Of a stretch of 64,000 nt of DNA, positions 18,169 through 57,356 are shown piece by piece (within the stretch, counting starts at the first letter, position 1; the number at the start of each line of letters is the position of its first letter). This stretch comes from Cucumis sativus (taxonomy: Eukaryota; Streptophyta; Magnoliopsida; Cucurbitales; Cucurbitaceae): assembly GCF_000004075.3 (NCBI RefSeq), contig NC_026656.2:4340001-4404000 (forward strand). Direction: 5' to 3'. Under the pieces are notes generated by a model that ran no database searches, was not told the origin of the DNA, and saw only the letters and a program-made list of their open reading frames with translations. Position numbers and translations under genes: made by a program.

Positions 18169-21100
18169 TTACACCCCTCTTCGTTGCATAATCTGAAGGC
18201 CAACATATCTGCAATCATTTTCATTTTTTAGTTTATTAATATATGAAAATGTTGTATACAAACCAAACCACAAATAATTGCATTTCTTATTATTTTTTCC
18301 TTCATAAAACATCATACTAATCCTATTTTATATTAGTTTTAAGATTCCATCCATTGATACACATTTATAAACTTCTATTTGTGTTTATCAAGAACATGGA
18401 TAGAAATTGATAATTTTCGATAGATACGAATTGATAGAAACTGAAACTTTGTTATATTTTGTAAATGTTTTTACAGTTTCATCGTTTACAATAATTTTCG
18501 TTCATTATATTTTTTCTAAAGTTTTCCAACATTCCTAGGAATGATAATTTAAAATGGTTTATATTGTCTTGATTATTTTAGACTATTCTTCAAAAAGGAA
18601 TTTAATATATAGTCCAAAGTTTCCTACTAAAACGGTAATGATAACTATTTTGTTTTTAGTTTTCTAAATGTAAAAATTTTCTTTGATTTCTCACCGTAAA
18701 TTTTAAAAACTACTTATTTTAGAAAAAGAGGTATTGACAAAAATAGTAAAAGAATTTATGATAAATACAACTAAGATTTTAAATTGTAAAAGTAGCAAAT
18801 TTAAAAGCGCTAATTTTCTGATATTCGCCTGATAGTCATATTTGTCATATTTGCTATATTTGTAATATGAAAAAAAAAAGTATCATAAGCAATTTTTTTT
18901 AATTTTTTTCTCATCTCATGCAATTAAAAAAAAGTTTTATTTTCATTTTTTAAAAAGAAAAACAATATTCCTCCTAAAAAGAAGAAAGAAAAAAGAAAAA
19001 AAGAAAAAAAAATCCAAATAGGGTAGATTTTTTAAAAGACAAAAATTATCCTATTTGTCTTTACGGTGATGCTGTTTGATTGAATTATGGTAGTAAACGA
19101 TTTGAGTGTGTGATAGACGATGATCACGGATAGATAGTGATATTATGCTACTTTTGAAAATATTTTGATTCGTTTTTGTTTAAAATGTATTTCACCATCA
19201 TTTCCAAACAATTCAACAATAATTTTAAGAAAATATTTTGATTTAAACTTTCGAGATGAAAAGTATTTTTTTACTCACCGAGCAAGCATCATGAGAGTGG
19301 CAGTAGGATTAGATCCCGGCGAGACTGCAAAAGTGGAGCCATCAAGTACACGCAAATTTTTAACTCCGATAACACTATAATTACCATCGACAACTTTTCC
19401 AACTAAACAACCTCCATGGTAATGCCAATACAACGTCACCGTCTTCTTACAAAACTCCCCAACTGCACTATCATCCGACAAATTTCCCGGCAACGGAAGC
19501 CCCACAAATTGAATCGTCTTATTACCCTCCAAATCCCTCGTCTTAATATTCTCTACAGTTTGAGTTTTAAGAAAACCTCCCACTTTTCTCACTCCCTTAA
19601 CACACATAGCAACATCGGCAGGATGAGAATAATAATTGAATCGAACAATGGGATTGCTTGCTGCATCGGCAGAGGAGTTTAAACGAAGCGAGCCCGTGGA
19701 GGCAACTTTAGAAAATTTGCCACCAATGGTAGCCAGGCTAGTAGTTGTTAAAGAAGTGGAATTAGGAGGGAAAATGCTAAATAATGGGGGAATTGAGAGC
19801 GGTGTTGTACTAGCAATGGATTGGAAGTAGAAGGTTTTGTTTTGTGAAATTCCTATGACTTTTGAAGAGGTGAAACTCAATGGAAATGGCCAAGCTAAGA
19901 CGTAACCAAAACGAGGATAGTCCATCATGGATTGGCCGACATGTGGTTGGTGAAGAACAACAGGTAGTTGTAAAGAAGAAAGATAAGATTTTGGGCCAAT
20001 CCCACTTAGAAGGAGAAGTTGAGGACTTCCAATGGCTCCTGCACTTACAATGATTTCTCCTTCTTTGCGAATGTATGCTGTGTGTAGCTTTCCTTTTGAG
20101 TCTGAATACAAAACCCCATTCGCTGATAAACCTACACCAAAATATATAGATATATAGTTTGAAAAAGTATGAAAATTCAACATTTAGTGGAACAATAAAC
20201 TTATTTTGTTATCATTATTACACATTTGTGTGTATGTATATAATGCAAAATCGCAAACTTGACTCTCAACTTTACAGTATCATAGAAATTGGACCAATGA
20301 TAAAAAATTTAATTCTCAAAATTATATAATAAATACAATTTATATGATTTATATATAATAAATATAATTTATATAATTTAAATATTAGTGTGAGAATCTA
20401 ATTTCTTATTTTGAAAGTTAACGAGTATAATGCAAATACCATTGTATGGGGATAATTTTTTACTCCTTCTCTACACACCTAGCCTCTTTGTCTACTAGAT
20501 GGAGTTTCATAGACACTAATTTCTAATTATAAACCTAAATTCTAACTTTTTTTTCGAATAACAATTTTAAAAATTAATAATTAAATATATAACAATGATA
20601 GACTCTTATATAGTCATCAATGATATACCAATATTTGTAAGATAATCGATAATGATAGACTTTGACAGATTTTGAAATATTTGTAATTTATTTAAAAATG
20701 TTATTCAATATGTTAATATTTTGAACGAAATTAATTGCTATATTCAGTGCTATTTATTTTTTAAACGAAAGGTTAGAATTAATTAACCTTTTTATTTTCT
20801 TTTTCTTTCTATATTAAGTTTTGGAGCTTTTAAAGGTAAAAAGCTAAGATTATTAAGCCAATATGCACTAACCAGAGAAGAGAATTCTTTGAACAATAGC
20901 CTGAACAGCAACTTTGAGATTTGTAGGTTGAGCCTTATTTAAAAGCTCCACAGCTCCATGTCTAGTCCCATTCTCATCAAAGATAGAACCTGAAATTTTA
21001 GTTCCCACATCATCTCTTAAATCAAACCCATTATCAGGCTCAACTCCACCTTCAACAAGAAACCTTCTAAAAGCACCTTGCCAAAGATTCAAACTAGGTT

Positions 21101-55017: not shown

Positions 55018-57356
55018 TTATTTGAGATTCGATCTTTGATGGAGTAACTTAAGGCCAACATATCTGCAAAATTATTTTGAAATGATTAGTTCATTCAAAT
55101 AAAAGAGAATATTGAAATTAAATCACAAGTTACATCCTATTTCTTTATATGAACATATTATATGGTGTTACTTTTTTTTTTTTTTTGAAAGAAAACTTCA
55201 AAGTTTTGATAATCCTATAGTTGCAAACATAGAGAGAAAAAAAAAGGAATTACTCACCGGCCAAGCATCATGAGAGTGGCCATGGGATTAGTTCCCGGCG
55301 ACTCAGAGAAAGTGGAGCCATCGACAACACGCAGATTTTTAATTCCAATCACTTTATAATTACCGTCAACCACTTTTCCCACCAAACATCCTCCATGGTA
55401 ATGCCAATAAGTAGTCACTGTCTTTTTACAATATTCTTCAACAGAGCTATCATTCCACAAATTTTCCGGTAGTGGAACACCCAAGAACTCAAACCCTTTA
55501 TTACCCTCCAAATTTTTTGTCTTAATCTTTTCCATAGTTCGAGTTTTAAGCAAATCTCCCATTTTTCTTACACCTTTAACACATCGACCAAGATCATCAG
55601 GATGTGAATAATAGTTGAATCCAACAATGGGACTCTTTTTCACATTAGTAGAGGAATTTAATCGAAGTGAGCCTTCAGAATGAACTTCGGAGAATTTTCC
55701 AACAAACATGGCTAAGGTTGGGATGATGGAAGTGGCTTGAGGAGGAAGAAGACTGAAAATTTGGGGAATTAAAATTGGGAAAGGGCTGGCAATAGATTGT
55801 ATATAGATATTGTCTTGTAAAATTCCAACAACTTTTACAGAAGAAGGAAGAACTGGAAATGGAATGATGATGTTGGTGCCAAAACGGGGATTGTCGGACA
55901 TGGATTGGCCGACATATGGTTGGTGAAGAACGACAGGTAGTTTTAAGGATGAAAGATGAGATTTTGGGCCAATCCCACTTAGAAGGAGAAGTTGAGGACT
56001 TCCAATGGCTCCTGCACTTACAATGATTTCTCCCTTTTTGCGAATGATTGCTCTGTGTAGCTTTCCTTTTGAATCTGAATACAACACCCCATTTGCTGAT
56101 AAACCTACGAGTCAAAATAATACATGATAAAAAACTGTGGAAATTATCGGTTGGAATAAATGATATGAACTCGAAATATGACTTTCTTCAAAATTAATGC
56201 ATTTTAGAATAACTTTTCACGAGTTAAATTGAACTTGAAATAAGCTTTTTTCAAGTTCAATTTATTTTCAAAAAAATCTTGTGAAAGAGTGTTGCTTCAA
56301 CAAGAAATGTACTTTGTTAAATCCTAGAAAACAATTTCTCGGAGTTGGTAAAATTATCTCAATGGAACAATACATAAAGTCATTGGCTCAGGTTTCCTCA
56401 TGAGATTACGTTAAAGTATAAATTAAAACTCCAGTCATTTAAAACAAATATAATTTAAATGGAATATTTGCAAGCACTAACCAGAGAAGAGGATTCTTTG
56501 AACTGTGGCTTCAATAGCAACTTTAATATTTGTGGGATTAGCCTTATTAAGAAGCTCCACAGCTCCATGTCTATTTCCTTTATTATCAAAGATTGAACCT
56601 CCAGTTTTAGTTCCCACAAGATGCCTTAAATCAAACCCATTATCAGGGACAACACCACCTTCCAATAAAGAACTTCTAAAAGCAGATTGCCAAGCATTCA
56701 AAATTGGTTGAGATACAACAGTTTCTTCAACCCATTCATAAGCCTTCTCAACCAATTCCATGTCCCAATCAACACCTGCACTTGCGAAAAACTCTCGATG
56801 TCCCCTCGAATAGAACCCGGCATTGACCATGCTTCCTCCGCCAAGGACTCGTCCTCGTATGTTCTCTACGCCATCCTCCGAGACGAAACGTTGAAAGGGA
56901 TTTCTTCCATCATCTCCAGCAGCAAAAACGTTCAATAGACCTTGTTCATCCAACACAGAAGGATATTTGTTGGGGTCACTGCCTCTTTCTAAAAGGAGGA
57001 CTGAGAATTTTGATGATAATGTTGTAGCTAATGGACACCCTGCAGTTCCACCTCCTATAATTATGTAGTCATATTCTTCTTTTGGTGGTAAATCAGTGGC
57101 ATTATGAACAAACTTCATGTAGCTAACATCTGAAAATTTAAGCTCATTCCAAAATAAGTATCAATGAAGGAAATTTTTTAACAAAAAAAAGGCGACATGT
57201 AACGAACGTTGTAAAACTGTCATCCGATTTGTGAAGAAAACTTATTCTGTAATAATTTGTACCTTGATTGGGGATAGCATGTGAGGAGTGAAGTTGTAAT
57301 TGAAAGATAGAGATCATAAGGCTGAGTATGAGGATGGTAACCCTAGAATGTTCCAT
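55018..57356 (-). CDS. GMC oxidoreductase, mandelonitrile lyase/HOTHEAD-like, copy E
   Basis: Exons on the minus strand: 57356-57263, 57129-56482, 56104-55258, 55063-55018; 1635 nt, 544 aa, phases close. It is the most compact copy (introns 133, 377 and 194 bp). Signal peptide MEHSRVTILILSLMISIFQ, ending in HSSHAIPNQ as in copy C. The FAD motif is GGGTAGCPLATTL; signature 1 GRVLGGGSMVNAGFYSR; signature 2 GAIGSPQLLLLSGIGP. The active-site motif is YWHYHGG (His about 482) with SPGTNP (Asn about 520). The C-terminus is YVGLKLLHQRSNLK, two residues longer than A, C and D. By eye exon 2 differs from copy C at about 25 of 213 residues. It is the first gene of the array in transcription order. Confidence 0.94.

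Follow-up and report, generated by a model that had tools for sequence, protein, structure and literature searches.

What a tandem array of GMC oxidoreductase genes encodes when its nearest relatives are the mandelonitrile lyases of Prunus, lyases like them or oxidases, is the question raised by a 64,000-nucleotide stretch of the Cucumis sativus genome (C2:4340001-4404000; herein referred to as the window). The array comprises 11 copies, all on the minus strand, within 133 kb (C2:4358169-4491013; tblastn and spliced models), and we think it likely that these encode 11 secreted, flavin adenine dinucleotide (FAD)-dependent GMC flavoproteins that are the counterpart of the Prunus mandelonitrile lyase (MDL) clade, oxidize alcohols and are probably not hydroxynitrile lyases (HNLs). 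A preliminary description of the window had reported five intact four-exon GMC genes on the minus strand at 18169-57356 (from the last base of the g1 stop codon to the first base of the g5 ATG); all five are borne out by Pfam matches and by spliced models that lack internal stops, but they are not the full set, as g6-g11 lie beyond the right edge of the window, up to the end of the array at C2:4491013. The genes inside the window (positions are those of the window) are as follows:

18169..22090, minus strand: g1, GMC oxidoreductase, 542 aa; exons 22009-22090, 20873-21526, 19279-20131, 18169-18208 (splice models, Pfam in exons 2 and 3)
32476..37025, minus strand: g2, GMC oxidoreductase, 551 aa; exons 36914-37025, 36057-36707, 33057-33903, 32476-32521 (splice models, Pfam)
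42158..45348, minus strand: g3, GMC oxidoreductase, 543 aa; exons 45252-45348, 44463-45110, 43184-44030, 42158-42197 (splice models, Pfam; nearest g6)
47229..50068, minus strand: g4, GMC oxidoreductase, 547 aa; exons 49963-50068, 49089-49739, 47907-48753, 47229-47268 (splice models, Pfam; near-copy g9)
55018..57356, minus strand: g5, GMC oxidoreductase, 544 aa; exons 57263-57356, 56482-57129, 55258-56104, 55018-55063 (splice models, Pfam)

The extent of the array was determined by tblastn with the exon pairs of g1 and g4 as queries across 184 kb (the window and 120 kb of neighboring sequence), which returned 11 copies each of exon 2 and exon 3 at E 1e-4 and, with these queries, threshold and span, no relic exon or further fragment. 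Exons 1 and 4 of all copies were placed from splice sites and reading frame, the gene models being predicted from genomic sequence and their starts being set at an upstream in-frame ATG for g1, g2, g8, g10, g4, and g9. All 11 models have four exons, intron phases 1/1/2, no internal stop and a length of 539-557 aa; the five in the window have GT-AG introns, intact frames and 542-551 aa. GMC_oxred_N and GMC_oxred_C exceed their curated Pfam cut-offs in all 11 genes (in the second and third exons, respectively, of each window gene), and all 11 carry the superfamily motifs GGGT[AT]GCPLA (of the GxGxxG type) and WH[YF]HGG (with the catalytic His). The least certain model is that of g7, because its intron 1 (C2:4423960-4424060) lacks a GT donor where one is expected and apparently requires a GC donor (GC-AG), which restores the common phase. 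We also considered whether g7 is a fused or intronless copy ("open frame 797") and dropped the idea, as its intron 2 contains many stops and has ordinary splice sites; the figure of 797 is left unexplained. Chance and pseudogenes are ruled out by the 11 full frames together with the codon constraint described below.

The kinship to Prunus mandelonitrile lyases that had been proposed for these genes is upheld. Among solved structures, the ten that match g4 best are without exception hydroxynitrile or mandelonitrile lyase chains (E 3e-173 to 2e-168), the next being the GMC protein 8s2y (E 2e-122), and the array shares ~50% identity with the three Prunus HNLs that we aligned. We inferred a maximum-likelihood tree (513 columns) from the 11 array proteins, these three HNLs and four GMC genes from elsewhere in the cucumber genome, Prunus and cucumber being the plants represented and three of the four other genes being incomplete and assembled from tblastn pieces. 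The array formed one clade (100/100; SH-like approximate likelihood ratio test/ultrafast bootstrap), array and Prunus were split from the four other cucumber genes at 98.4/99, and, of the sequences included, those of the Prunus MDL clade lay closest to the array. Trees of exon 2 only and of exon 3 only, built without three outgroups, recovered the array as a group with support of 94 and 93, and the branching order within the array is settled only in part (ultrafast bootstrap as low as 42 in the tree of 18 proteins). Because only Prunus and cucumber were compared, the growth of the array can be dated no more finely than after the Prunus split.

Coverage of diverged copies far from the array comes from two Pfam searches of the whole genome (226.6 Mb, 88 contigs), which gave at least 32 matches to GMC_oxred_N and at least 19 to GMC_oxred_C, of which 11 of the 19 are the array; both counts are lower bounds, because each exon counts as a match of its own and scoring was confined to the best candidates. 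Elsewhere in the genome, the stretch C4:10400622-10403179 is repeated at 10407453-10409999 (~2.56 kb, 98.9% identity, 6.8 kb apart, the second copy being truncated where the locus ends); both stretches have an equal-scoring GMC_oxred_N match, there is one GMC_oxred_C match there among the matches listed, and the repeat may reflect duplication of part of a different, distant GMC gene.

The array and the Prunus lyases part company at the active site. In an alignment of the same 18 proteins, numbered by the 1ju2 chain of PaHNL1, Tyr457-Trp458-His459 fall within YWHYHGG and His497 falls within SHPQG. His459 and His497 are, we assume, the active-site pair of PaHNL1, with His497 catalytic; a statement of His497 as its catalytic residue was looked for and not found in the open literature searched. 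His459 is conserved in 18 of 18 proteins, the array included (11/11), whereas position 497 is His in all three Prunus proteins and Asn in all 11 array proteins and all four other cucumber GMC proteins, so that no array copy has the His-His pair of FAD hydroxynitrile lyases. A model-based prediction given in PMC11191352 makes His523 of the 562-aa PsMDL2 an active-site residue; His523 and, in the 1ju2 chain of 536 residues, His497 are each 39 residues away from the C-terminal end and hence are probably the same residue. For the GMC superfamily, a catalytic pair of His and Asn is described, with His-Pro, His-Arg, and His-Ser as exceptions (PMC8171062). In the array, the predicted active site thus has the His-Asn pair found in GMC alcohol oxidases and is not that of a cyanide-releasing enzyme; the preliminary description, which noted conserved active-site motifs, missed that Asn takes the place of the His497 of mandelonitrile lyases as the second catalytic residue.

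Several observations nevertheless weigh against an oxidase assignment. Asn497 alone is no proof of oxidase activity. Position 457, common to the HNLs, is Tyr in all three Prunus proteins and in 9 of the 11 array proteins (g2 and g11 have Phe) and Ile in the four other cucumber GMC proteins, and YWHYHGG, which PMC11191352 treats as a conserved hallmark of MDL sequences, is present in nine of the 11 array proteins; on these features, the array could look HNL-like. At position 328, two of the Prunus rows have Cys and the third has Val, and all 11 array proteins have Ser, but since the Val belongs to PcHNL5, Cys328 is not decisive and Ser328 is weak evidence. Position 113 is Val in Prunus and Phe in 10 of the 11 array proteins.

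If these points were given full weight, the array would consist of true (R)-mandelonitrile/hydroxynitrile lyases in which Asn replaces His497. This alternative would account for the ten lyases at the head of the g4 matches, for the ~50% identity and for the Tyr457, Trp458, and His459 common to nine of the 11 copies, and it agrees with published gene names: CsaV3_2G008160, "(R)-mandelonitrile lyase," is upregulated in heat-stressed male flowers (PMC8570340) and CsaV4_2G000612, MDL3, stands in a nitrogen-use network table (PMC11675882), both being placed on chromosome 2, though not at a particular array copy, by their identifiers. We nonetheless regard it as highly improbable: His497 and Cys328 are replaced in all 11 copies, and the presence of Asn497 in all four of the more distant cucumber GMC genes makes Asn look ancestral, with His as a change in Prunus. 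Cucumber is also not known to be cyanogenic, which we count against a lyase. Because Asn occupies position 497 in 11 of 11 proteins, the label "(R)-mandelonitrile lyase" is probably wrong for the array genes, and the use of this functional label for chromosome 2 genes in cucumber transcriptome papers is put in question. The most economical history would have Tyr457 gained before, and His497 after, the split between Prunus and the array.

Selection on the genes had been suggested from their intact frames, and codon models agree, with a ratio of nonsynonymous to synonymous substitution (omega, dN/dS) below 1 on every tested branch. Pairwise omega was 0.11-0.31 where defined and pairwise dS ranged from 0 (g4/g9) and 0.09 (g3/g6) up to 2.2 (Biopython experimental module). 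With a codon model written for this analysis and a codon tree whose internal supports fall to 44, a single omega for the whole array was 0.254, and two-ratio models gave 0.176 (g2) to 0.435 (g10) for nine single-gene branches and 0.221 for the stem of g4 and g9, which were taken jointly. For all ten branches, the fit is superior to that with omega = 1 (uncorrected p values from 1e-25 to 0.026), and none has omega > 1. The weakest, g3 (p = 0.026), is not significant after correction for ten tests, so that constraint on that lineage has weak support, and the second weakest is g10 (p = 6e-4); g10, g1, g2, and g11 depart from the common omega (2dL 7.0, 4.0, 4.4, and 4.2, uncorrected). A dN/dS near 1 on all branches, the result that would have spoken against selection, was not seen, as no tested branch is near or above 1 (0.176-0.435 across the ten). 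Purifying selection has kept the tested lineages of the array.

Whether this constraint preserves different enzymes or many doses of one is less readily answered. Rather than acting on different substrates, the copies could have been retained chiefly to set the dosage, or the regulation under stress, of a single oxidase activity common to them all, which would fit the identity of His459 and Asn497 in all copies and the near-identical pairs g4/g9 (99.8% protein identity) and g3/g6 (94%). We consider this rather unlikely, as the other 53 of the 55 pairs are 62-84% identical and hence differ at 16-38% of residues; the preliminary description of a "diversified" set is accurate for these pairs and not for the two near-copies. 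A conservation profile over gap-free columns (10 copies, g9 left out, numbered by g6) peaks at aa 119-143, where 16 of 25 columns are invariant, and again toward the C terminus, in the catalytic stretch at aa 484-533 (33/50). Outside the signal region and the C-terminal end, it is least conserved at aa 337-384 (6/48), a stretch that includes the column of Prunus position 328, fits different substrates better than dosage and is suggestive of substrate divergence. We tentatively propose, as a possibility, that the array preserves the state ancestral to the almond-type FAD hydroxynitrile lyases, with Tyr457 and His459 present and Asn497 not yet His, as 11 constrained oxidases that each have their own substrate. 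If so, the array would be a natural series of oxidases sister to the cyanogenic enzymes, along which the change from oxidase to lyase could be traced residue by residue. As a related group that retains the catalytic pair seemingly lost by the cyanogenic Prunus enzymes, it makes the origin of the lyases testable by ordinary enzyme assays.

The closest pair, g4 and g9, raises the separate question of whether all copies are real. The features concerned, in window positions, are as follows:

46900..50295, no strand assigned: g4 block, 3396 bp, copied at C2:4447133-4450526 (g9; alignment and flanks)
46135..46902, plus strand: R1, left direct repeat at the g4 block, 98.6% identical to R2
50290..51057, plus strand: R2, right direct repeat at the g4 block, from a family of dispersed repeats

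The two blocks are 99.7% identical and ~60 kb apart, with sharp edges and unrelated flanks, and a genome search placed the first 321 bp of the g4 block at two locations only, g4 and g9. An identity so high across one gene-sized block might suggest that the assembly is in error over part of the array, with g9 a misplaced second reading of g4. We hold this to be very unlikely: of the 11 differences between the blocks, one of which, in exon 2, alters an amino acid, 10 fall within 393 of 3396 bp (4e-9 if they were evenly spread, for a stretch chosen post hoc), and the flanks of g9 differ on both sides and lack the R repeats. All other pairs except g3/g6 (94%) are at most 84% identical in protein and therefore are not artefacts of this kind.

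R1 and R2 (759 of 770 columns identical) lie as direct repeats on both sides of g4, and both ends of the copied block coincide, to a few bases, with the start of R. Among the best 40 of 323 candidates, the R family is dispersed, the next best copies are 88% identical, and there is no second full-length same-strand pair within 10 kb; no R match lies within 4 kb of g9. Capture of g4 between long terminal repeats was considered, as the placement of R1 and R2 resembles such repeats, and rejected, as g9 lacks R; since no similar R pair was found among those 40 candidates either, we claim no transposon model. The trace seen in g4 and g9 could stem from conversion or from a duplication at g4 that was linked to R.

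With the copies accepted as genuine, we return to alcohol-oxidizing flavoproteins as the preferred reading. Signal peptides had been ascribed to all window genes, and the hydropathy profiles, on which this part of our account depends, fit: all 11 proteins have N-terminal hydrophobic 12-mers (mean hydropathy 2.4-3.4) that exceed every 12-mer from residue 41 on. Together with the 2-8 N-glycosylation sequons per protein, these segments suggest that the array proteins are secreted, and they are more likely FAD alcohol oxidases or dehydrogenases. After its lineage diverged from that of Prunus, the array would have grown by one local duplication after another, in events ranging from old copies (pairwise dS ~1) to the near-identical g4/g9. 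Its proteins would bind FAD and enter the secretory pathway; His459 would act as the base, Asn at 497 would hold the substrate hydroxyl and the flavin would accept the hydride, such that an alcohol would be oxidized to an aldehyde, with hydrogen peroxide as a second product if oxygen is the acceptor. In that case, a family of secreted flavoenzymes would have undergone a large expansion under selection. Among the papers listed in searches of the open literature, which does not extend to subscription papers, none describes the array.

The surroundings offer little further context. The preliminary description of a stretch "littered with dead transposons" finds partial agreement in a copia-type Pol_BBD match below cut-off (28971-29309), in one of two shorter window open reading frames (ORFs; the other lacks a Pfam match), and in the dispersed repeat that flanks g4, but of the 13 non-GMC ORFs of at least 120 aa in the window, the 10 that were searched all lack a Pfam match. 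To the right of the array is a MuDR-type match (C2:4495990-4496568), and between g8 and g9, C2:4437306-4439168 (97306-99168 on the scale of the window) consists of tandem ~178 bp units that are ~99% alike, possibly a satellite. Rfam tRNA matches lie between g1 and g2 at 27783-27854 (plus) and 23281-23352 (minus). On the left, a minus-strand ORF at C2:4339525-4340397 (window 1-397 and leftward) matches Pfam UDPGT (6.6e-29), the ORF at window 539-1174 has no Pfam match and by eye could be the first exon of that same UDPGT gene, and an ORF further left (C2:4333263-4333865) matches MatE (4.1e-28). A gene cluster that joins the UDP-glycosyltransferase and MATE-transporter ORFs to the array was considered and dropped, as nothing ties either to it.

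Among known systems, the array is most like the Prunus FAD (R)-mandelonitrile lyases (PaHNL1 1ju2/3gdn, 3red, and PcHNL5 6lr8), with which it shares the GMC domains, a mature chain of ~520 aa, His459, the motif YWHYHGG (YWHYHGG or FWH[YF]HGG in the array), and a C-terminal GRYVG tail (ARYVG in g1). It differs from them in having TNPMA (SNPTA in g1), and hence Asn, where Prunus has SHPQG with His497, in Ser for the Cys328 of two of the three Prunus rows, and in Phe for Val113 in 10 of 11 proteins. The four other cucumber GMC genes (C7:21.36, C5:2.10, C3:35.75, and C7:22.0 Mb), which we would tentatively class as HOTHEAD-type, resemble the array in their GMC domains, in His459 and in a common GTNP motif with Asn at 497, but are 42-51% identical to it and have Ile457. 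Three of them match in four separate pieces and one, at C7:21.36 Mb (C7:21356333 region), in a single piece whose frame runs without a break across PaHNL1 residues 5-515, in contrast to the array genes with their four exons. GMC alcohol oxidases such as choline oxidase 2jbv, whose catalytic pair presumably includes the Asn, are alike in the His-Asn pair and distant in sequence, the third exon of g4 matching 2jbv at E 1e-19. Plant enzyme families commonly expand in tandem; this one stands out for its constrained set of 11 genes with an oxidase-type site, beside the cyanogenic Prunus clade.

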